From contig WHSY01000014.1 in the NCBI GenBank assembly GCA_009379815.1, positions 1 to 64,000 on the forward strand: 64,000 nucleotides of DNA, in the 5' to 3' direction. Below are positions 23,734 through 36,320 of this stretch, one piece after another. The stretch's first letter is position 1, and each line of letters begins with the position of its first letter. The DNA is from Pseudonocardiaceae bacterium. GTDB lineage: Bacteria > Actinomycetota > Actinomycetes > Mycobacteriales > Pseudonocardiaceae. The notes beneath the pieces are model-generated. The model had not been told where the DNA came from, ran no database searches, and saw only the letters and a list, made by a program, of their open reading frames with translations. A program made the translations under genes and the position numbers.

Positions 23734-23883
23734 TCGCCCGCCGCGTACCCGCGCCGGTGCCCGTCGGTGACGATAGGCGCGACGAAGCGCCGCTGCTGCA
23801 ATGTCCTGCCAGCCTCCTTCGTCCTGAGGGGCGACACAGCCGCTCACCCGAGCTCGCGCCCAGCTGAACACGGAGGACACGCC

Positions 23884-24723
23884 ATGACCACGACACCCAC
23901 CGACAGCACCGACGCGGCCGCCGCCGACCGTGCCCTGAAGGCCAAGCATCGGGCGATGTGGGCATCCGGGGACTACCCGGCAGTTGCCGCCGAGCTCATC
24001 CCGACCTTGGGCGCCGAGCTGGTCGGGCACTGCCGGATCTCGCCGGGCCAACGAGTCCTCGACGTCGGCGCGGGCACCGGAAACGCCGCGATCCCGGCCG
24101 CGCAGGCCGGTGCGGTCGTCACCGCCTCCGACCTGACACCGGAGCTGTTCGACGTCGGGCGGCGCAACGCCGCCACCGCCGGGGTCGAGCTCGACTGGGT
24201 GCAGGCCGACGCCGAGGCGCTGCCCTTTTCCGACGGCGAGTTCGACGCCGTCATCTCGTGCCTGGGCGCGATGTTCGCCCCCCACCACCACACGACCGCG
24301 GACGAGCTGCTGCGGGTCTGCCGACCCGGCGGGACCGTGGGCATGCTGAACTGGACACCGGAAGGCTTCATCGGCGGCCTGTTCAAGGCCATGGGCCCCT
24401 ACGCGCCGCCGCCCCCGCCCGGCGCCCAGCCCCCACCACTGTGGGGCAGCCAGGAACACGTCCGCGAGCTCTTCGGCACCGGCGTGTCCACCGTGGACAC
24501 GACGCGGCAGCATGTCGTGTTCGCCGGCGGCGAGCCCGCCGAGTTCCGCGAGTACTGGAAGCGCAACTACGGCCCGACCATCTCGGTCTACCGGTTCAAC
24601 GAGCACGACCCGCAACGCGTCGCCGCACTCGACCAGGACTTCGTCGACTTCCTCACCGGCTGGAACCACGGCGGACAATACGAGGCCGAGTACCTGCTGA
24701 TCGCCGCCCGCACGAGCGAGTGA
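23884..24723 (+). CDS. class I SAM-dependent methyltransferase
   Basis: 279-residue cytoplasmic methyltransferase. SAM motif I is VLDVGAGTGNAAIPAAQAGA, the acidic end of strand 2 is VTASDLTPEL, then ADAEALPFSDGEFDAVISCLGAMFA and RPGGTVGMLNWTPEG. A GGAGGACACGCC ribosome site precedes the ATG. The DsrE gene follows 54 bp downstream, probably in the same transcript. It is one of five methyltransferase genes within 12 kb. The substrate cannot be predicted. Confidence 0.85.
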   Translation: MTTTPTDSTDAAAADRALKAKHRAMWASGDYPAVAAELIPTLGAELVGHCRISPGQRVLDVGAGTGNAAIPAAQAGAVVTASDLTPELFDVGRRNAATAGVELDWVQADAEALPFSDGEFDAVISCLGAMFAPHHHTTADELLRVCRPGGTVGMLNWTPEGFIGGLFKAMGPYAPPPPPGAQPPPLWGSQEHVRELFGTGVSTVDTTRQHVVFAGGEPAEFREYWKRNYGPTISVYRFNEHDPQRVAALDQDFVDFLTGWNHGGQYEAEYLLIAARTSE

Positions 24724-24777: not shown

Positions 24778-25140
24778 ATGAGTGACAAGGCCGCCATCAG
24801 CCTGCATACCGGCCTGGAGGACACCGAGACCGTCACGGTCGCTTTCCTGGTCGCCGTCGGCGCCGCCGAAGCGGGCCGCCCCACGCTGATGTTTCTGACC
24901 AAGGAGGCCGTGCGGCTGGCCCTGGTCGGGACCGCGGTCGGCGTGGCCTGCGACGGCTGCCCGCCGCTGCCCGACCTGCTGCGCCGCTACGCCGACGCGG
25001 GCGGGCGCTACTACGTCTGCCCCATCTGCTTCAACGCCCGCCAGCTCGACAAGGGCGCGATCCTGCCCAACGCCGAGATCGCCGGCACCGCGCCCCTGTG
25101 GGAGTGGATCGGCGACGGCGCCACCACCTTCAGCTACTGA
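24778..25140 (+). CDS. DsrE-family protein
   Basis: 120-residue DsrE/DsrF-like fold: ISLHTGLEDTETVTVAFLVAVGAAEAGRPTLMFLTKEAVRLAL, then CDGCPPLPDLLRRYADAGGRYYVCPICFNARQLD. Three cysteines sit in CDGC and CPIC contexts, which suggests sulfur transfer or metal/thiol chemistry. Strong ribosome site GAGAGGAG. It follows the methyltransferase on the same strand and is closed by a 13-bp-stem terminator. The neighbourhood of thiol- and metalloid-type genes suggests a shared role (inference). Confidence 0.75.
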   Translation: MSDKAAISLHTGLEDTETVTVAFLVAVGAAEAGRPTLMFLTKEAVRLALVGTAVGVACDGCPPLPDLLRRYADAGGRYYVCPICFNARQLDKGAILPNAEIAGTAPLWEWIGDGATTFSY

Positions 25141-25194: not shown

Positions 25195-25230
25195 ACCCGC
25201 GCCCTGAGCACGCGAGCTCGTCCGCCCCTG

Positions 25231-25410
25231 TCACCGCTTGCCGGCGATGACGGTGACGGCCACCGCGACCTCGGCTTGCTGCTCGGAGGTGAGCAGGTCG
25301 CCCATGAGCTCGACCAGTTCCGGGGGGAACAGTGGGTATCGGGCGGCGTCCTGGAGGCGGAACGGCCGGCGTTCGAGCACCTCGGGCCCGCCGAAGCCCA
25401 CGCTCGTCAT
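25231..25410 (-). pseudogene. C-terminal fragment of a Sec-type methyltransferase
   Basis: 59 codons on the minus strand read TSVGFGGPEVLERRPFRL, QDAARYPLFPPELVEL and MGDLLTSEQQAEVAVAVTV, nearly identical to the last 59 residues of the selenocysteine-type methyltransferase at 30024-30815. DNA identity is also very high from about 25231 to 25408. The methyltransferase domain and TGA region are absent; the fragment abuts the end of the regulator gene at 25425. It is the scar of a duplication or recombination. An ATG at 25410 could in principle still give a small peptide. Confidence 0.7.
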
Positions 25411-25424
25411 CTCGGGGCAGGTAC

Positions 25425-28325
25425 TCAGCGTGAGGTTGTGACCACGTCGGTGGCGTAGGTAACGGCGTCGTCGGGGCTCATGGATCGACCGCGGGCCCAA
25501 GCGACGTCGATCTCGGATTCGGTGAGCACCCGGCGGGCGGCGTCGGTGGGGTGCACGGTCTCCCACCGGAAGTCGTCGATGGCGAGCCCGCCGCCCACGG
25601 TTTCCCGCACTCGGGAGGCGGCCCCAGCGAGGGTGACTGCGCGTTGTGGCGACTGGCGGCCGATCGCCGCCTGGCCGAGCCGGTCGAGGTCCATCGCCAT
25701 GCTGGGCAGGTCATCGAGCTCCGACGCAATGCCGAGGCAAGCAGTGAGCTCCTGCTCGGCTTGCTCGTAGCGTCGCTCGCGCAACGAGATGAGTGCGAGC
25801 GTGCGCAGCATCTGGCTCTCGTACCAGCGCTCGCCGATGGCACGCGTACCAGCCACGACCAGCTCGCCGTAGTTGCGGGCGGCGTCCAGTTCTCCGGTGA
25901 ACAGCTTCACCAGCGCGGAGGTGGCCATGCCGTTACCCATGGCCATGGGGTCGGCTGCGTGCTGGGCGACGATGGCCTGGACCTGTTGCTCCAGCGGTGC
26001 GGCAGCTTCCGGATCGCCGCGGTGACAGGCGATGGTGACCACCAGTCCCAGCAGCGACTCGAACTCGAGCCACCAGGGACTGAGGAGGGTTCCGATCGGG
26101 TACTGCTCGTCAACGACCTCGGCTGCATCATGCTTGAGCCCCCGTGCCACCTCAGCCGCCTGCCGGTAGTGCCCTTCGGCGCCGTCGAGATCGCGCTCCC
26201 AGTAGCACAGCCCGGCGAGCCCGATGAGCGCCTTGGCGCGGGCTACAGTCGCAGCGTCGCCGGAGAGGGCGAGCATCTCGTCAAGCCACGCTCGGCCTTC
26301 GGTGATGCGGCCGCGGAAATGCCAGAAACGCCACAGCCGTCCAGCCATGACCAGGCCCGGGTCGAGTTCGCCCGTTTCCCTGGCCCGGCGCAGCACCGCG
26401 CGCAGGTTGTCGTGATCGGCCTCGAGGCGTCGCAACCACCGGGGCTGTTCGGCTCGGGTGAGCTCCGGCTCGGCCCGTTCCACCAGGGCGGCATAGAGGT
26501 CGGCGTGCCTGCGGCTGACCTCTTCGTACTCACCGTGGGCTCGTAGCTCGTCGAGCGCGTACTCGCGGATCGTCTCCAGCATCGAATACCGGACCGGGTC
26601 GGTGTCCAAGGGTGCTTGGAGCAGGCTCACCTCGATCAGATGGGAGATGCCGCGGAGCACAGCCCCTGCGGGAGAGTTCGCGGCGACGGCTTCGGCTGCG
26701 TCGAGGCTGAAGCCGCCGCGGACGATGCCGAGGCGCCGGAACAGGGCCTGGTCGGCGGGGTCGAGCAGGTCATAGCTCCAGGCGATGGCCTCGCGCAGCT
26801 GCTGCTGACGTGCGGGTTGGTCGGTGTTGCCCTCGACGAGCAGCGAGAGGACATCGGTGAGGCGGCGCCGCAGTTCGGCCAGCGGGAAGTGCCGCAGGCG
26901 GGCCGCGGCGAGCTCGATCGCCAGCGGTAGCCCGTCAACCCGGGCGACGATCTCGGCGACCGGTGCCGCGTTGCCGGCCGTGACGGTGAACCGTGGGTCG
27001 ATGGCCCTGGCCCGTTCGGCGAAGAGAGCGAGGGCGTCGAAGCCATCGGGGTCTTCGGCCGAGGACAGCTCCTCCGGGTCGGGCACCGGCAGCGGCGCCA
27101 GGCGGTATTCCTGTTCCCCGGACAATCGCAGCGGCGCCCGGCTGGTGGCCAGCACCCGTAAACCGGGAGCGGCGTCGAGCAGCCGGCCCACCACCGCCAC
27201 GCCGGGCAGGAGGTGCTCGAGGTTATCGAGCACCAGCAACAACCGCCGCGCCTTGAGGTGGTCGATCAGCGCATCCAGGACCGGCCGCTCGGGCTCGGAC
27301 ACGCCGAGCGCGGCGGCGACGGCGGAGGTGATCAGGCCGGGTTCGTCGATCTCGGCCAACGGCACAAGACACACGCCGTGCGGGTGATGGGGCATCGACT
27401 GCTCCGCCGCTGCCAGAGCCAGTCGGGTCTTGCCCGCCCCGGGCGGGCCGGTGACGGTGACCAGCCGCTTGGTCGCCAGCAGCCCGGCCAGATCGGCGAG
27501 TTCGTCGCGCCGTCCCACGAAGCTGGTTCGCGGACTCGGCAGGTTGTGCAGCGGACGGGCAGCCTCGGCCGCTCGGGGCTCGCCGAGGTCTGGGTCGTGG
27601 AGGAGGATCCGCTCCTCCAACCGGCACAGCCACGGGCTCGGCTCGATGCCCAACTGCTCGTCCAGGGTCTGGCGGGCACGCCGGAAGGCGTGCAAAGCGT
27701 CGGCCTGGCGCCCCGCCCGATACTGCGCGATCATCAGCTGACCCCACAGGCGCTCCCGGAACGGATGTTCCGACACCAGCCCGTTCAGCTCGTCGACCAC
27801 GCGGCTGTGCCACCCCGACGCGAGGTCGGCTTCCACCCGATCTTCGAGGACACCCAGTCGCATGGCCTCCAGCCGGGCCCGCTCCGGCTCCAACGCGACC
27901 ATCTCCGCGACGTCAGCCAGTACGGATCCCCGCCACAGGCCGAGCGCCTCGCGCAGCAGGTCGGCTCCTTCTTTCGGACGACCTCCGGCGAGCGCCTCCC
28001 GGCCCTGTTCGGCCAGGGTCTGGAACCGTCGGGCATCGAGCTCATCGGGGGAGGTCTTGAGCAGGTAGCCCGGCGCGCGGCTCTGCAGCCGCCAGCCGTC
28101 GGGTCCGAGCGCCTGCCGGAGCCGGTACACGTAGCCCTGCAAGGTGTGCCGTGCCGTCTCGGGCGGATCGCTCTCCCACATGTCGTCGATCAGTCGTTCG
28201 GCGGACACCACCCCCGGACTTCGGACGGCCAGCAGGGCTACCAGCAGCCGCAGGCGTGGGGTCCCGGCATCGAGCAGCGACCCCTCCCTGACCACCTCGA
28301 GTGGCCCCAGGATGCGGAACTCCAT
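25425..28325 (-). CDS. AfsR/SARP-type regulator (wHTH-BTAD-NB-ARC-TPR)
   Basis: 966-residue signalling ATPase. Residues 1-95 form an OmpR-type winged helix (MEFRILGPLEVVREGSLLDAG, VSAERLIDDMWESDPP, LQGYVYRLRQALG). BTAD follows to about 245, then an NB-ARC ATPase with Walker A VTGPPGAGKTRLAL, LLLVLDNLEHLLPG and LPLAIELAAARLRHFPLAEL, and C-terminal TPR-like helices. Such proteins activate secondary-metabolism or stress genes. It is divergent from the SRPBCC-methyltransferase pair, which it may control. Transcription runs into the methyltransferase fragment downstream. Confidence 0.9.
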   Translation of the reverse strand: MEFRILGPLEVVREGSLLDAGTPRLRLLVALLAVRSPGVVSAERLIDDMWESDPPETARHTLQGYVYRLRQALGPDGWRLQSRAPGYLLKTSPDELDARRFQTLAEQGREALAGGRPKEGADLLREALGLWRGSVLADVAEMVALEPERARLEAMRLGVLEDRVEADLASGWHSRVVDELNGLVSEHPFRERLWGQLMIAQYRAGRQADALHAFRRARQTLDEQLGIEPSPWLCRLEERILLHDPDLGEPRAAEAARPLHNLPSPRTSFVGRRDELADLAGLLATKRLVTVTGPPGAGKTRLALAAAEQSMPHHPHGVCLVPLAEIDEPGLITSAVAAALGVSEPERPVLDALIDHLKARRLLLVLDNLEHLLPGVAVVGRLLDAAPGLRVLATSRAPLRLSGEQEYRLAPLPVPDPEELSSAEDPDGFDALALFAERARAIDPRFTVTAGNAAPVAEIVARVDGLPLAIELAAARLRHFPLAELRRRLTDVLSLLVEGNTDQPARQQQLREAIAWSYDLLDPADQALFRRLGIVRGGFSLDAAEAVAANSPAGAVLRGISHLIEVSLLQAPLDTDPVRYSMLETIREYALDELRAHGEYEEVSRRHADLYAALVERAEPELTRAEQPRWLRRLEADHDNLRAVLRRARETGELDPGLVMAGRLWRFWHFRGRITEGRAWLDEMLALSGDAATVARAKALIGLAGLCYWERDLDGAEGHYRQAAEVARGLKHDAAEVVDEQYPIGTLLSPWWLEFESLLGLVVTIACHRGDPEAAAPLEQQVQAIVAQHAADPMAMGNGMATSALVKLFTGELDAARNYGELVVAGTRAIGERWYESQMLRTLALISLRERRYEQAEQELTACLGIASELDDLPSMAMDLDRLGQAAIGRQSPQRAVTLAGAASRVRETVGGGLAIDDFRWETVHPTDAARRVLTESEIDVAWARGRSMSPDDAVTYATDVVTTSR

Positions 28326-28457: not shown

Positions 28458-28967
28458 ATGAAACGGGCAACGAAGGGCGCGGTCAGCGTCCACATCGACG
28501 CCTCGCCCGAGCGCGTCTACCAGCTGGTCTCCGACGTCACAAGGATGGGTGAGTGGAGCCCGGAAACCTACCGCTGCAAGTGGCTGGACGCAGCGGGCCC
28601 CGCGGTCGGCGCGCGATTCAAGGGCTACAACCGCCGCGGCAACGCACGCTGGTCGAACACCCTGGTCGTCATCGCCGCCGATCCCGGCCGTGAGTTCGCC
28701 TTCCGGCGAGACGTGCTGCCGTGCGGGGTGTGCGACTGGCGCTACCGGCTGGAACAGGACGGCACCGGCACCGTGCTGACCGAGTCCTACGACGTCACCA
28801 AGCCGGACTGGACGATCACCAACCGGTTCAACGGGCTGATGCTGCGCGTCGAAGACCGCGACGACGACCTCGCCGACGGCATGCGCACCACCCTGTCCCG
28901 AATCAAGCAGGCCGTCGAAACCGAGCAAGCACCACGACACACTCCCACGAGGAGGGCTGAACGATGA
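28458..28967 (+). CDS. SRPBCC-family protein (START/Bet v1-like)
   Basis: 169-residue hydrophobic-ligand-binding fold: VSVHIDASPERVYQLVSDVTRMGEWSPETY, then VGARFKGYNRR, WSNTLVVIAADPGREFAFR and WRYRLEQDGTGTVLTESYDV. I chose ATG 28458, preceded by AAGGGAG, over ATG 28440. Members bind lipids or aromatic compounds, or act as polyketide cyclases. Its TGA overlaps the start of the next methyltransferase gene (ATGA), so the two products probably work on the same compound. Divergent to the AfsR-type regulator. Confidence 0.8.
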   Translation: MKRATKGAVSVHIDASPERVYQLVSDVTRMGEWSPETYRCKWLDAAGPAVGARFKGYNRRGNARWSNTLVVIAADPGREFAFRRDVLPCGVCDWRYRLEQDGTGTVLTESYDVTKPDWTITNRFNGLMLRVEDRDDDLADGMRTTLSRIKQAVETEQAPRHTPTRRAER

Positions 28968-29821
28968 CCGACACCACCACGCCTGCCAACGCGGACGAAA
29001 TCCGGTACTGGACGCAGGTCGAAGGCCCCCACTACGTCGTGGAGGCCGAACGCTACGACCTTTTGCTCCGTGCATTCACCGAAGCGCTGCTCGACGCCGC
29101 CGCTCTGCACCCCGGCGAGCGGGTCCTCGATGTCGGCTGCGGCAACGGCGCCACCACCATCGAAGCCGCCAGGCAGGTCCGGCCAGGTGGTCGGGCGCTC
29201 GGTGTCGACGTCTCGCCGCCGATGCTGGCGCTGGCAGGCAAGCGAGCCGCGGCGGCCGGCGTGGACACCGTTGAGTTCCTCCGCGCCGACGCCCAGGTCC
29301 ATGCGTTCGACGAAGGCAGCGTCGACGCCATCATCAGCCGCAACGGCCTGATGTTCTTCGACGACCCGAATGCCGCTTTCGCCAACCTCGCCCGTGCGCT
29401 GCGCCCCGGCGCCCGCGTGGTGTTCGTCGCGCCGCAGGGGCCGAAACACAGCGAGTGGATCATGGCGGCGGGCGCGGCCGCGGCACCCTACCTCGGTGTA
29501 CCCCAAGGGCTTGCCCCGAACGCGCCAGGGCCCTACGGGCTGGCCGACCCCGACCGGACCCGCGGCATTCTCGCCGGTGCGGGATTCGGCGACGTCACTG
29601 TCGAAGCACTGACCCGCCCGATGCGCATCGGCGACGACGTCGAGGACGCGCTGGGCTTCATCCGCTCCCTGCCCAGGGTCGCCGACCTCTTCGCCGCCGC
29701 ACCGCCGGACAAACGGACCGCCGCGATCAGTGCGGTGCGTGAAGCGCTCGCACCCTATGCGGGACCTGACGGTGTGGTGATGCACAACAACGGCGAGTGG
29801 CTGGTGACGGCCCGGCGCTGA
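28964..29821 (+). CDS. class I SAM-dependent methyltransferase (UbiE-like)
   Basis: 285-residue methyltransferase. Motif I VLDVGCGNGATTIEAARQV, motif II ALGVDVSPPMLALAGKRA, then FLRADAQVHAFDEGSVDAIISRNGLMFFDDPNAAFANLARALRPGARVVFV. The N-terminal DEIRYWTQVEGPHYVVEAERYD resembles ubiquinone/menaquinone-type or small-molecule methyltransferases. Overlaps the SRPBCC gene by 4 bp. It converges on the selenocysteine-type methyltransferase; a short perfect hairpin at 29950 separates them. Confidence 0.85.
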   Translation: MTDTTTPANADEIRYWTQVEGPHYVVEAERYDLLLRAFTEALLDAAALHPGERVLDVGCGNGATTIEAARQVRPGGRALGVDVSPPMLALAGKRAAAAGVDTVEFLRADAQVHAFDEGSVDAIISRNGLMFFDDPNAAFANLARALRPGARVVFVAPQGPKHSEWIMAAGAAAAPYLGVPQGLAPNAPGPYGLADPDRTRGILAGAGFGDVTVEALTRPMRIGDDVEDALGFIRSLPRVADLFAAAPPDKRTAAISAVREALAPYAGPDGVVMHNNGEWLVTARR

Positions 29822-29970: not shown

Positions 29971-30023
29971 TTCTCCGGCACGGTCGCACAGGTGCACAGC
30001 GACCTCGTCCTATCCGCCCCGGG

Positions 30024-30815
30024 TCACCGCTTGCGGGCGGTGACGGTGATGGCCACCGCGACCTCGGCTTGCTGCTCGGGGGTGAGCAGGTCGCCCATGA
30101 GCTCGACCAGTTCCGGGGGGAACAGTGGGTATCGGGCGGCGTCCTGGAGGCGGAACGGCCGGCGTTCGAGTACCTCGGGCGCGCTGAAGCCCACGCTGGT
30201 GATCTTGTCGACGAAGACACGCTCCGCCAGGGCTCCGGCCACTCAACCGGCCCACGCCGAGGGGTGGGTGAGGATCTCGGAGGGCAACTCCTCCTCTCGG
30301 ATGGTGAGGTCGGTCACGCAGAGGCGGCCACCCGGGCGCAGCACGCGGTAGGCCTCGGCCAGCACCCGGCTCTTGCGCGCCGACAGGTTGATCGAGCCGT
30401 TGGAGATGATCACGTCCACCGAGGCGTTGGGCAGCGGCAGCGACTCCATCTGCGCCCGGTGGAACTCGGCGTTGTCCGCGCCTGCCTGCGCGGCGAACGC
30501 GCGGGCGCGCTCGACCATCTCGGGCAGGAAGTCCACCCCGACCGCCCAGCCGGTCGGCGCCACGAGAGCGGCGGCCAGCAGGGTGTCGATGCCCGCGCCG
30601 CACCCGAGGTCGGCGACCGCCTCGCCGGCGCCCAGGTCCGCCCACGCCAGCGGGGCGCCCACCCCCAGCGCCCACTCAGCGGCGCCGGCGGGCACTGCTG
30701 CCAGCTGCTCGTCGGTGTAGAAGCGCGTCCCGGGCCCGCCGGGCGCGTCGAGCCCCTGGTAGGCGTCGACAACCAGCTCTTGGATCTCGTCGGAGTACAT
30801 CAAGTCCCTGCTCAT
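30024..30815 (-). CDS. ArsM-like SAM methyltransferase A, predicted selenoprotein (in-frame TGA at codon 191)
   Basis: 263 codons if the TGA at 30245-30243 is read as selenocysteine; a conventional reading gives 190 residues plus a separate GTG-started 72-mer. N-terminal MYSDEIQELVVDAYQG, motif I VADLGCGAGIDTLLAA, VGVDFLPEMVERARA, VDVIISNGSINLSARKSRVLAEAYRVLRPGGRL and HPSAWAG, then U, then VAGALAERVFVDKITSVGF and an intact C-terminus. The U position equals the conserved Cys of ArsM (CmArsM Cys224, GECLGGAL). The other ArsM active-site Cys (NCVCNL, Cys174) is NGSINL here, so arsenite may not be the substrate. The ATG overlaps the anti-sigma stop (ATGA), placing it in the sigma operon. A third, truncated copy of its C-terminus is at 25231. 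Confidence 0.75.
30210..30228 (-). promoter_or_regulatory. candidate bacterial SECIS hairpin A
   Basis: In the mRNA, GGCGGAG-CGUGU-CUUCGUC folds into a 7-bp stem (with G-U pairs) and a 5-nt loop; the loop begins 22 nt after the in-frame UGA. Bacterial SECIS elements lie within about 16-37 nt of the UGA and have a G early in the loop, as here. The loop nearly equals that of candidate B. Confidence 0.45.
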
Positions 30816-31051
30816 GGCGCCTCCCTGTCGAGCGTGTCGAGAAAGCCGACCAGACGGGCCTCCACCTCCGTGGGCAGGGAGGGTAGCGGGGTCGAGCGCA
30901 GGAAACCCCGCAGCGCCTCGGCGAACTCGACCTCACCGCAGCAGCGTTTGCAGAACGCCAGATGCTGCTCCACACGGGCGCGGTCGGTCGCGTCGAGGTC
31001 CTGCTCCAGGTACTCCCACAGCTGCCGGACCGCTTCAGCGCAGCTGATCAC
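30812..31051 (-). CDS. zinc-finger anti-sigma factor
   Basis: 79-residue protein with the ZAS motif: ISCAEAVRQLWEYLEQDLDATDRARVEQHLAFCKRCCGEVEF (H-x3-C-x2-C). It matches the RsrA/mycothiol-system anti-sigma group, which binds ECF sigma factors and releases them on oxidation or metal exchange. The GTG start overlaps the sigma stop (GTGA), and its stop overlaps the methyltransferase A start (ATGA). A thiol/metal signal controlling the selenomethyltransferase is therefore plausible (inference). Confidence 0.82.
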   Translation of the reverse strand: MISCAEAVRQLWEYLEQDLDATDRARVEQHLAFCKRCCGEVEFAEALRGFLRSTPLPSLPTEVEARLVGFLDTLDREAP

Positions 31052-31629
31052 CGGCGGGCTCCCTTCGGCGCGGCAACGAGGTCGTGTTCGGTCGCGTAAC
31101 TCCACAGCTCGCGCTCGAACAGCTTGCGGCCGCGGTGCAGCCACGACAACACCGTCCCCTGGGCTACCCCGAACATCCGCGCCACCTGCCCGGTGGACAG
31201 CCCCTCCATGTGCACCAGCACCAGCGGGACCCGGTACAGCGGCTGGACACGGTCCAGGACACACCAGACGTCGTCCTCCTCGAACACGGCGAGAAAGTCC
31301 AGGTGCAAGCTGTCGGAGTAGGGCCAGGGATCCGCCTCGGCGATCCTGCGGTACAGCGAGCCCTCGGGCAGCGGATCGACCGGCAGCTCGCGCGGCAGGC
31401 CCGCGTCCCGGCGGTGCCGGTCGCGGACGCAGTTGAGCAAGATCTGGCGAAACCACGCCGGAGCGGCCTGCACATCGCGCAGCCCGTCGAAGCCGCGGTA
31501 GGCCTTGATCAGACACTCCTGAACCGCATCCTCGGCCGCCTCACCGACCAGCCGGCGAGCCAGCGAATACAGCCAGGGCAGCTGCTCCCTGGCAACCGCC
31601 GCGAACTCGCTGCGTTGTTCCTCGCCCAA
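31048..31629 (-). CDS. ECF RNA polymerase sigma factor
   Basis: 193-residue ECF sigma. Region 2: LPWLYSLARRLVGEAAEDAVQECLIKAYRGFDGLRD and APAWFRQILLNCVRDRHRR. Region 4: LYRVPLVLVHMEGLSTGQVARMFGVAQGTVLSWLHRGRKLFERELW. The only usable start is TTG 31629, since a stop lies seven codons upstream. It lies 92 bp downstream of methyltransferase B and is co-translated with the anti-sigma gene. Its targets probably include its own operon. Confidence 0.87.
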   Translation of the reverse strand: MGEEQRSEFAAVAREQLPWLYSLARRLVGEAAEDAVQECLIKAYRGFDGLRDVQAAPAWFRQILLNCVRDRHRRDAGLPRELPVDPLPEGSLYRRIAEADPWPYSDSLHLDFLAVFEEDDVWCVLDRVQPLYRVPLVLVHMEGLSTGQVARMFGVAQGTVLSWLHRGRKLFERELWSYATEHDLVAAPKGARR

Positions 31630-31721: not shown

Positions 31722-32537
31722 TCACTCGGTCGTGTGAGGCTTGCGGGCAAGGAACGCATAGCCGTACACGTCGAACGCGCGTGCCTTGTCCTCGCCGCGC
31801 GCGCCACCGAAGGTGTCCACTGGCGAACCGATTCGTACGTCGACGAACCCCGACTCCTCGAGCATTCGCTGCCAGCCTGCGCACGGCAGGCCGCCGGCGA
31901 TTCAACCGGTCCACAGGTCGATCTCGCGCAACGCCTCCGGGGAGACCGGCACGCCGTTGGCGATATCGCCGAACTGCAGCCACCCACCGGGGACGAGCAC
32001 CCGGGCGACCTCGGTGAACGCCGCGCGCTTGTCGGCGCACAGGTTGAAAACGCCGTTGGAGATCACCACGTCAGCCCAGTCATCAGGCACGGGCAGCGCT
32101 TCGGCCAAGCCTTCCCGGAAGGCCACGTTGTCCAGGCCGAGCCTGGCGGCGTTGTCCTTCGCCTTGGCGCGCATCTCGGCGGTCATGTCCACGCCCACCA
32201 CCGAGCCGGTAGGCCCGACGTGCCGTGCGGCCACGAAGCTGTCGAAGCCGGCACCCGAGCCGACGTCGGCGACCCGCTCGCCGGCCTGCAGCTGTCGCAG
32301 CGCGAACGGGTTCGCGACGCCGGCGAAGGACTCGACGGCCGTGTCCGGGAGCGCGTCGACCACCTCGTCCGGATAGCCGAGCAGCCGCGCGAGCCGCCGG
32401 CCGGTGTGGAAGTGATGCTCACCATGGGGATCGTGGGCCACCTCGCGGTACTTGCGGCGCACCTCCGCGCGCAGCGCCTCGGGGTCCACCGGCGTCTCGA
32501 TCGGCTCCGCCGCGCTCGATGATCGTGCGGTCATCAT
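31722..32537 (-). CDS. ArsM-like SAM methyltransferase B, predicted selenoprotein (in-frame TGA at codon 212)
   Basis: 271 codons with the TGA at 31904-31902 read as selenocysteine. N-terminal VRRKYREVAHDPHGEHHFHTGRRLARLLGYP, motif I VADVGSGAGFDSFVAARHVG, VVGVDMTAEMRAKAKDNAARLG, DWADVVISNGVFNLCADKRAAFTEVARVLVPGGWLQFGDIA, then LREIDLWTG, U, IAGGLPCAGWQRMLEESGF, VDVRIGSPVDTFGGARGED, KARAFDVYGYAFLARKPH. Everything after the TGA is in the same frame and looks like a normal methyltransferase end. The column equals ArsM Cys224; Cys174 is again missing (NGVFNL). A conventional annotation would stop at 31902 and lose the last 60 residues. The start is one of two adjacent ATGs, at 32537 or 32534. Confidence 0.75.
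31875..31891 (-). promoter_or_regulatory. candidate bacterial SECIS hairpin B
   Basis: In the mRNA, GCCUGC-CGUGC-GCAGGC forms a perfect 6-bp stem and 5-nt loop beginning 17 nt after the in-frame UGA. The loop CGUGC resembles CGUGU of candidate A. Confidence 0.45.
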
Positions 32538-32673
32538 CAGCTCCTCTCTCCGGTCGACAACAGTCGACCGACCCCGACATCCGTCGGCTGCCCACAAGGA
32601 CGCGAGCGGGTAAGGGGCTATTGCAGCCGTGCCAAGGAAGAGCTGCCGGGCGCGCGCAGCCGCGGTGTGAACG

Positions 32674-33019: not shown

Positions 33020-33387
33020 GCGCGGTGTCCTCGCTGGTGGCGGCGTCGTTCGCCGAGCCGACCGAGACGCGGGAGTTCCCGAAGGGACGGCTCGAACTGC
33101 TCGAACTCGGCGGCGGCGCGGTCGTGGGCCGGTTCGTCCTCGAACCCGGCTGGCGGTGGTCCGAATGCGTCCGCCCCACCGCCGGGACCGAGACCTGCCA
33201 GCAGCCGCACCTGGGCTACGTCCTGTCCGGGCGGATGCACGTCGTGACCGACGACGGCGCCGCGGGCGAGGCCGGGCCCGGGGACGCGTTCCGGATCGAC
33301 CCCGGCCACGATGCGTGGACCGTCGGCGACGACACCGTCGTCCTGCTCGACTTCGCCGGCGTGGCCACCTACGCCGTGGCGACGTGA
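33016..33387 (+). CDS. cupin-domain protein
   Basis: 123-residue single cupin: LLELGGGAVVGRFVLEPGWRWSECVRPTAGTETCQQPHLGYVLSGRMHVVTDDGAAGEAGPGDAFRIDPGHDAWTVGDDTVVLLDF. Possible metal ligands are the His of QQPHLGYV and the His of PGHDAW; the first cupin motif has lost the usual HxH. Translationally coupled to the DUF4242 gene and closed by a strong hairpin at 33392. Function unknown; possibly sensing or binding a small molecule. Confidence 0.78.
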   Translation: MSAVSSLVAASFAEPTETREFPKGRLELLELGGGAVVGRFVLEPGWRWSECVRPTAGTETCQQPHLGYVLSGRMHVVTDDGAAGEAGPGDAFRIDPGHDAWTVGDDTVVLLDFAGVATYAVAT

Positions 33388-33391
33388 ACCT

Positions 33392-34773: not shown

Positions 34774-35136
34774 TCATCCCTTCACGTAGGAGAGCTTCTC
34801 GGCGACCAGCCCGCCGACGACCCGGAACACGTCCACGCCCCGGACATGGCCGTCCTGCGACCACCGGTAGCGCCAGCACACGACGGCGCGGTCCCCGGCG
34901 ATCAGGACGTCCTCGGTGTCGAAGACCGCGTCGGGCGAGGCGGCGAACAGCTGCTCCCAGCAGCGGCGCACCGCCTCGGTGCCCTGGTGTCGGCCGCCGT
35001 CGGGGGCGGTGGTGTCCTCGAACACGCAGTCCGGGGTCATCGCGGCCATCACGGCGTCGACGTCGTGGCGGCCGAACGCGTCGTTGAACCGGTCCAGCGC
35101 GCCCCGGGTCTCCTCGGCTGCGTCGATCGCGGTCAT
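34774..35136 (-). CDS. SnoaL/NTF2-like protein
   Basis: 120-residue cone-shaped fold: ALDRFNDAFGRHDVDAVMAAMTPDCVFEDTTAPDGGRHQGTEAVRRCWEQLFAASPDAVFDTEDVLIAGDRAVVCWRYRW. This is a SnoaL-like domain seen in isomerases, hydrolases and ligand-binding proteins. The ATG overlaps the upstream methyltransferase stop (ATGA) and the stop is 3 bp from the TIGR03086 start, so the three genes form a tight operon. Confidence 0.85.
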   Translation of the reverse strand: MTAIDAAEETRGALDRFNDAFGRHDVDAVMAAMTPDCVFEDTTAPDGGRHQGTEAVRRCWEQLFAASPDAVFDTEDVLIAGDRAVVCWRYRWSQDGHVRGVDVFRVVGGLVAEKLSYVKG

Positions 35137-36183
35137 GGCCGGGCCTCGTAGACGTTGTTGAACGGGGTCTCGGTCGCCCGGCGGAACCGGGTGAAGCCGG
35201 CGCGCTCGACCACGTCGCGGATGCGCGCCTCGCCCGCCTGGGCGCCGAGCGCGAGGTCGGGCTCCTGGGTGCGCGACACCGGCAGGCAGATCAGCGTGGA
35301 CGCGGAGTAGAAGATCCGGCCCACGGGGTTGAGGTTGTCCTCGACGCGGTCGGCCGCGGCCGGTTCGACGATCATCCAGGTGCCGTCGGGGGCCAGGGTC
35401 TGCCGCACGTAGGACGCGGCGCCCACCGGGTCGCCCATGTCGTGCAGGCAGTCGAAGTGCGTGACGAGGTCGAGGCCCGTCCCGGAGTAGTCCTTGGCCG
35501 TCGCGACCTCGAAGGTGCAGCGGTCGGCGACGCCCGCCGTCGCGGCCGCCTTGCGGGCGGCGTCGATCGAACCCTGGTGGTAGTCGGAACCGACGACGGT
35601 CGAGCTGCCGAATGCCTTGGCCATCAGGATGGTCGAGGCGCCGTAGCCGCAGCCCACGTCGGCGACCCGCGCACCGGCCCGCAGCTTGTCGACCACGCCC
35701 TCGAGCGCAGGCAGCCAGGCGTCGACGAGATTGCCGACGTAGTTGGCCTTGAAGAAGCGGTAGGTACCGGCGAACAGGCTCTCGTGGTGCTCGCCCCAGG
35801 ACACGCCCCGGCCGGTGCGCACCGCCTCGGTGAGCAGCTCGACGTCCTTGAGCGTCGAGCCGGCCACCTGCAGCCCACCGGGGACGAACAGCGGGTTGTC
35901 CTCGCTGGTCAGCGCGAACGCCTGCTCCTCGGGCAGCCGGTAGGTCCCGGCCGCGGGGTCGTACTCGGTGTAGCCGCTGGCGGCCTGCGCGGCCAGCCAC
36001 TCGGTCAGGTACCGCTCGTCGCAGCCGGTGCGGGCGGCCAGCTCGGCCGGCGTGACCGGCACGCTGTCGCCCATCGCCCGGTAGAGCCCGAGCCTATCAG
36101 CACCGTCGTCGCGTGCAGCACCGCACCGAGGTCGCCGGCGAACCGGCCCACGAACTCGTTGAGCTTGGTCTCGTCCACGGACA
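35133..36183 (-). CDS. class I SAM-dependent methyltransferase with winged-helix N-terminus, frameshifted near its start
   Basis: The catalytic part is intact: winged-helix PAELAARTGCDERYLTEWLAAQAASGYTEYDPAAGTYRLPEE, then ESLFAGTYRFFKANYVGNLVDAWLPAL, motif I VADVGCGYGASTILMAKAFG, DYHQGSIDAARKAA and DCLHDMGDPVGAASYVRQTLAPDGTWMIVEP. The native start at 36183 (ATG after GGAGGAGAC) reads MSVDETKLNEFVGRFAGDLGAVLHATTVLIG and then leaves the frame near 36093. The expected bridge G-D-R-L-G-L-Y lacks about 7 bases. The product either starts internally (MGDSVPV) or is not made. First gene of the operon with the NTF2-like and TIGR03086 proteins. Confidence 0.75.
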
Positions 36184-36320
36184 TGGTCTCCTCCTTCGTC
36201 AGGGAGACCGACGCTAGAAATCACCGGTTGCGGACAGGTAGCAACGAGCTAGCAGCCGGCCGAGGCGTTGCTCCGTCCAGGTGCTTGCCACGGGGCTCGG
36301 CGTCACGCTACGAACACGAG

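Follow-up and report, generated by a model that had tools for sequence, protein, structure and literature searches.

Selenoproteins of known function are mostly oxidoreductases. Selenocysteine (Sec) forms of ArsM-type proteins, characterized by a UxxG motif, and multi-domain UU selenoproteins have been catalogued (PMC2398784, PMC9312934, PMC13188914), and one of these families, ArsM_AhpD_UU, bears the NCBI name arsenite methyltransferase/AhpD domain selenoprotein. In the canonical enzyme CmArsM, the mutants C174A and C224A are inactive with both arsenite and methylarsenite, and C72A is inactive with arsenite (PMC3877260).

Here we analyze two ArsM-like genes, B and A, located in a window of 64,000 nucleotides (the whole stretch analyzed, positions 1 to 64,000 of contig WHSY01000014.1 from a Pseudonocardiaceae bacterium). 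Each of them is interrupted by an in-frame TGA, and standard gene callers would end both at this codon. We propose, with a probability of about 0.8, that B and A are selenoprotein methyltransferases of the ArsM fold, that they are the output of an autoregulated ECF/zinc-anti-sigma stress circuit, and that they act on a soft acceptor other than arsenite. The features under discussion are collected in Table 1.

Table 1. Position of the genes, hairpins and predicted promoter sites in the window
Feature	Position	Strand	Remarks
Gene B, ArsM-like SAM methyltransferase with selenocysteine U212	31722..32537	minus	UGA at 31904-31902
SECIS-type hairpin of B	31874..31892	minus	7-bp stem, apical loop CGUGC at 31885-31881, 16 nt after UGA
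Gene A, second ArsM-like SAM methyltransferase with selenocysteine U191	30024..30815	minus	UGA at 30245-30243
SECIS-type hairpin of A	30210..30228	minus	7-bp stem, apical loop CGUGU at 30221-30217, 21 nt after UGA
ECF sigma factor	31048..31629	minus	sigma-70 regions 2 and 4, TTG start
Zinc-type anti-sigma factor	30812..31051	minus	zf-HC2, HLAFCKRCC (HxxxCxxCC); GTG start overlapping the sigma stop
Predicted ECF-type promoter upstream of B	32598..32625	minus	TGCAATA-N16-CGTCC (exact)
Second promoter-motif site	23797..23824	plus	one mismatch
Class I methyltransferase gene downstream of the second site	23884..24723	plus	ordinary stop, no Sec
DsrE-like protein	24778..25140	plus	of a type neighbouring B in other genomes

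Selenocysteine codons in genes B and A

The frame of gene B opens with ATGATG at 32537 and is broken down to 31722 solely by the TGA at 31904-31902, which is codon 212 and lies within LREIDLWTG-U-IAGGL. The earlier note had counted sixty codons after this TGA, ending in LARKPH; the open frame is there, with an exact count of 59 codons, and it ends in LARKPHTTE ahead of a second TGA at 31724-31722. In gene A the TGA is found in the context PSAWAG-U-VAGAL. The two proteins are 45% identical across 163 residues, and their alignment confirms the earlier claim that both TGAs occupy the same site. Counted along the alignment to PDB 5eg5, the shared column is that of CmArsM Cys224 (the title of PDB 5jx7 reads C224A).

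Among the aligned homologs the codon at this column is TGA in 53, TGC in 87 and TGT in 26 and nothing else, that is, a Cys codon in 113 homologs and TAA or TAG in none. The relatives of B at 65-75% identity retrieved in the first searches, which range from Actinomycetota to Alphaproteobacteria, have TGA there in 18 of 18 cases, and the B homologs beyond this set have TGA or Cys codons and no others. For A, matches containing exactly one TGA were obtained in 17 Actinomycetota genomes outside Pseudonocardiaceae (49-74% identity), and its Pseudonocardiaceae relatives are Cys forms (50-54% identity). By these counts the conservation of UGA at one column is far beyond chance, and the identical codon in 53 homologs excludes a chance TGA in a single assembly. 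When the close homologs were checked for decay of the frame past the TGA, all were found open and conserved there. Constraint on B is the same at both sides of the codon, with a mean pN/pS of 0.48 before and 0.50 after the UGA (13 B homologs, SECIS codons excluded; B only).

Both SECIS-type hairpins satisfy the bSECIS rules of PMC13188914, and Rfam gave no family match at either site. In the B hairpin, columns 13-19 counted from the UGA pair with columns 25-31, and the loop is mostly CGUGC or CGUGU. Over 23 sequences, 98.8% of the cells are paired, 14 cells being changed on both sides; none of 500 shuffles gave pairing as high, and controls slid along the alignment gave 20-47%. A subclade of eight sequences has the CGUGN loop 2 nt further on, out of codon register and with a stem of its own. 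The A hairpin is near-invariant, with one covarying pair. At codons +6 to +11 of A, synonymous choices are 100% identical, whereas the mean for the gene is 0.54; since the hairpin barely varies, synonymous constraint is the main support for the SECIS of A, ahead of covariation. The local MFE at the A site is -8.0. Sec genes fold more stably at the SECIS site than their synonymous shuffles (mean z of -1.0 for Sec B and -0.5 for Sec A), whereas Cys genes do not (0.1). Planctomycete Sec relatives of B (L058, L059, L062, L063, L070) have a predicted hairpin loop GGUC instead of CGUGN.

The same assembly holds on contig C21 a compact selenium locus (L187) with selB, selA, a formate dehydrogenase operon with a UGA in fdhA, a tRNA-Sec with UCA anticodon, and selD with a UGA in its own catalytic motif. 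This is a contig other than that of the window, in a draft assembly of 733 contigs that is 97.3% complete with 1.7% contamination. A second tRNA-Sec candidate, on contig C58, is actually a tRNA-Ser. SelB was present in 23 of 24 genomes with Sec B versus 10 of 22 with Cys B (Fisher p = 0.0002, ignoring kinship, for sampled genomes and homologs that are not independent), and in 17 of 17 genomes with Sec A. SelB is common in Pseudonocardiaceae (201 of 297), so the four Sec-B genomes of this family prove little alone.

A 193-bp stretch at 25221-25412 on the minus strand, 5 kb away from A, is 94% identical to 30013-30205, the 3′ end of A without the UGA region. It adjoins an AfsR/SARP-like regulator gene (25425-28325), overlaps no obvious gene start region and looks like a recent partial duplication. 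Three more class I methyltransferase genes (23884-24723, 28964-29821 and 35133-36218), one of them with an Rv2258c-like winged-helix domain, lie within 13 kb of A and B, which makes five altogether.

If the TGAs were ordinary stops, B and A would be truncated or decaying genes. Standard annotation would indeed terminate both at the TGA, and the fragment of the 3′ part of A at 25221-25412 indicates that partial copies arise here; on the other side are the TGA at one column in 53 homologs without TAA or TAG, the equal constraint on both sides of it, the SECIS covariation and the complete Sec machinery. Moreover, two strands of the predicted fold (E232-236 and E258-265) come after the UGA, so that a product stopping at UGA would be without part of this fold. 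We consider truncation or decay extremely improbable, a nonsense mutation or pseudogene being excluded by column conservation, SECIS covariation and pN/pS. Because the TGA is conserved in relatives, is followed by sequence under equal constraint, has a covarying SECIS and is accompanied by sel machinery in the assembly, the TGA of B is, judging from sequence comparison, decoded as selenocysteine, and A is equally well supported as a selenoprotein. The argument of the earlier note that two independent nonsense mutations are unlikely thus holds, homolog conservation identifying the UGA as a selenocysteine codon. The SECIS elements, the shared promoter motif described below and a module conserved across the phylum go beyond that note.

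No relatives of B were found in viral contigs. Matches of A in plasmids were all below 60% identity and, among the matches listed, all were arsenite methyltransferases. A search for extra UGA-encoded Sec in the neighbouring rhodanese, OsmC, DsrE and sigma genes yielded none, and returned only the terminal TGAs of the MFS gene.

Cysteine signature and the arsenite mechanism

Profile searches place A and B in the ArsM/AS3MT group. They score 213.4 and 201.3 bits, respectively, with NF008823, under its curated cut-off of 263; with NF041537 they score 164 and 225 bits, for the methyltransferase part only and below the cut-off of 510 bits. An AlphaFold2 model of B, built with Sec as Cys from a 25-sequence alignment, has a mean pLDDT of 90.6, and its best 13 PDB matches are all ArsM or AS3MT. 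In CmArsM numbering the alignments assign Cys224 to the Sec column, Cys174 to NCVCNL and Cys72 to the GCG motif. A and B both have Val72, Gly174 and Sec224, the As(III)-binding Cys72 and Cys174 being absent. The earlier reading of NCVCNL as NGVFNL in B and NGSINL in A, with loss of the second ArsM cysteine, was correct, and Cys72 and the N-terminal conserved Cys are gone too.

This arrangement is general. Among 165 homologs, 88 carry Cys72, Cys174 and Cys224, and 77 are without Cys72 and Cys174; in the latter, position 72 is Val, Ile, Thr or Leu, position 174 is Gly, and position 224 is Sec (52) or Cys (25), and no homolog of the 165 mixes the three-Cys and single-ligand patterns. One more TGA row, from L170, was left out of this set for its disturbed frame. 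The N-terminal conserved Cys is missing in all 77 class members, and Trp209, three residues ahead of the Sec, is invariant in them and not in canonical ArsM. A tree made by a quick method and left unrooted shows one switch between Gly174 and Cys174 and a minimum of six between Sec and Cys, with A and B in separate deep clades. At the level of sequence, then, the Val72/Gly174/Sec-or-Cys224 signature defines a coherent class, and to this extent the new methyltransferase class of the earlier note stands; the class is not wholly new, because the known selenoprotein family ArsM_AhpD_UU already has the same signature. A separate subgroup, formed by single-domain Sec methyltransferases from the phylum of L073 (L207-L210), shares Val72/Gly174/Sec224 and has a Cys two residues before Val72 (FCGVGNP).

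Taking into account that the CmArsM cysteine mutants are inactive and that the class is without Cys72 and Cys174, the canonical arsenite mechanism is not expected in B and A. They could still be ordinary arsenite or methylarsenite methyltransferases if Sec replaced one As ligand and small-molecule thiols supplied the rest. The closest fold and profiles are those of ArsM/AS3MT, some B genes adjoin ArsR-type regulators, and dimethylarsenite is said to bind one cysteine only (PMC3877260), so that a late methylation step with one protein ligand is conceivable. However, all 77 class members lack Cys72, Cys174 and the N-terminal conserved Cys, the losses correspond to the inactive C174A and C72A mutants, the NF008823 scores of 201 and 213 stay below 263 bits, and the conserved neighbours included no recognisable gene for arsenite efflux or arsenate reductase. 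These points make an arsenite substrate improbable. The signature separates from true arsenite methyltransferases a large set of proteins that are near to them, are partly annotated as such and should not bind arsenite in the known way, and it can be used to correct annotation and arsM surveys. In our preferred reading, of B and A as methyltransferases for another soft acceptor, Sec would be the single remaining chalcogen ligand of a SAM methyltransferase.

The sigma/anti-sigma module and its possible acceptor

B is placed directly upstream of the sigma, anti-sigma and A genes and in the same direction. The sigma stop overlaps the anti-sigma start (GTGA) and the anti-sigma stop overlaps the ATG of A (ATGA), overlaps by which these three genes look like one tightly coupled operon. 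Sigma and anti-sigma homologs adjoin A in most of the related-genome stretches, from many Actinomycetota. The HxxxCxxC motif is kept in 31 of 31 anti-sigma sequences, and the best NCBIfam match of the anti-sigma factor is RsrA, at 44.4 bits and under the cut-off of 62.5.

A GCAA-N18-CGTC dyad, of a form typical of ECF promoters, was found upstream of 15 of 31 sigma genes and 12 of 19 B genes; in shuffled sequence the best dyad reached 5-7. Roughly half of the regions ahead of sigma do not contain it in exact form. The dyad was counted on each gene's own strand, and divergent genes share their intergenic region. Scanning with GCAAT-N16/17-CGTC gave sites before sigma (13), B (10), OsmC (5), a small membrane-protein gene (4) and DsrE (1), and the control, shuffled copies of 39 larger stretches, gave 6 sites. 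In the 64-kb window the site at 23797-23824 is the only one besides that of B, with 0.14 sites expected; since the motif was defined on sigma and B upstream regions, it provides a modest independent test. The DsrE-like gene at 24778..25140 is a probable member of the regulon.

A perfect palindrome at 32570-32551 on the minus strand, CGGTCGAC-TGTT-GTCGACCG, follows the predicted promoter of B and precedes its ribosome-binding site; it is a possible operator. Divergent from B is an SCO4226-like gene of a nickel-responsive family (PF14026; 32744-33019, plus strand), followed by a cupin gene at about 33025-33390.

Where A and B occur in one stretch, both are Sec forms in 8 pairs, both are Cys forms in 10 and one pair is mixed (p 0.0001, not to be taken at face value in related genomes). 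The closest relatives of the A and B of the window occur in the same genomes, G770 (L149, L168) and G677 (L150, L169), suggesting that the whole module moves together. In this Pseudonocardiaceae genome the Sec form of the module looks acquired, because the family members with the module have Cys forms; these natural Cys versions are available for comparison. A 6 kb portion of the window DNA gave partial matches to relatives throughout the order. Frequent neighbours of free-standing B genes in other lineages are ArsR-HTH/rhodanese regulators (12 loci), MBL-fold/rhodanese proteins (10), MFS transporters (7) and DsrE (4); the counts derive from automatic gene calls and are rough. Outside Actinomycetota, free-standing B genes have neither sigma factor nor promoter motif, and hence the circuit is not intrinsic to the enzyme.

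The model we propose starts from the Sec coding, the SECIS elements, the machinery, the module and the promoter motif, all of them supported by the comparisons above. SelB, together with the hairpin just downstream, would insert selenocysteine at the UGA of A and B. The zinc-type anti-sigma factor (HxxxCxxCC) would hold the ECF sigma factor. As to what is sensed and what Sec does in catalysis, we infer that a thiol-reactive or soft-metal signal would free sigma from anti-sigma, and that the selenolate of A or B would hold or activate one soft acceptor beside SAM. The freed sigma would transcribe from TGCAATA-N16-CGTCC promoters B, the sigma/anti-sigma/A operon and the partners OsmC, DsrE and the small membrane protein, and the methylated product would be removed or volatilised. 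The inducer of sigma/anti-sigma may thus point to the substrate of these selenoenzymes.

Several acceptors can be envisaged. An organometal or heavy-metal species (Hg, Te, Sb) might be methylated or demethylated, with Sec binding the metal, a role that has been proposed for other recently described selenoproteins. Selenolates are excellent ligands of soft metals, zinc-type anti-sigma factors can respond to soft metals, and several recent selenoproteins have been tied to metal or metalloid resistance in reviews (PMC13188914). Against this, the conserved neighbours included no recognisable gene for resistance to mercury or tellurium, and we hold a metal substrate to be unlikely, if less so than arsenite. 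The neighbours DsrE, OsmC and rhodanese-type proteins would suggest sulfur or selenium species as acceptor; these neighbours vary between lineages. As acceptor we would guess reduced sulfur or selenium compounds, or some other soft species needing one ligand, rather than arsenite. In the most specific form of the proposal, members of a distinct class would use one selenolate or thiolate to present hydrosulfide, persulfide or hydroselenide to SAM, and an Actinomycetota ECF/zinc-anti-sigma regulon would have two such selenoenzymes as output, constituting an undescribed selenium-dependent methylation defence. To this form we give less than even chances, and it is put forward tentatively.

Comparison with described systems

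With ArsM/AS3MT (NF008823, PRK11873; CmArsM 4fs8 and others) A and B share the SAM methyltransferase fold (the fold search gave 29-33% identity with algal ArsM structures), the Cys224 column, kept as Sec, and the domain order over the first 240 residues. They differ in the loss of Cys72, Cys174 and the N-terminal Cys, in a score below the NF008823 cut-off, in having no C-terminal extension like that of the eukaryotic enzymes, and in the Trp209 that is invariant in their class.

The selenoprotein families ArsM_AhpD_UU (NF041537), ArsM_DUF2284_UU (NF041536) and MTase_UXPK_star (NF047649) have Sec at the same column and the UxxG motif. Signatures were compared for NF041537-type members only, one of which (L206, over the cut-off) has the same Val72/Gly174/Sec224. 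That Sec forms of the ArsM type were unheard of is thereby excluded, as it is by the UxxG ArsM selenoproteins in reviews. In contrast to these families, A and B are without the second domain (AhpD, DUF2284 or UXPK) and its Sec, and belong to different clades. To our knowledge, no such ECF sigma module is known for the three families. The newest UU families reportedly stem from work by Haft and Gwadz (2023) and by Haft and Tolstoy (2025). The readable literature on ECF sigma factors with arsenite methyltransferases or selenoproteins contained no description of the A/B circuit. Within the limits of that literature, three things are new: the pair of Actinomycetota clades and their SECIS elements, the use of the signature to define the class, and the ECF/zinc-anti-sigma regulon. 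Part of this may be described in the 2025 work.

The circuit resembles the SigR-RsrA type of thiol-stress regulation in the ECF regions 2 and 4, in the HxxxCxxC of the anti-sigma factor, with RsrA as best NCBIfam match, and in that many relatives have the promoter motif ahead of their own sigma gene. The SigR-type promoter is GGAAT/GTT. The present circuit departs from that type in an anti-sigma factor below the RsrA cut-off, in the predicted promoter TGCAATA-N16-CGTCC and in having selenoprotein methyltransferases as its probable targets.
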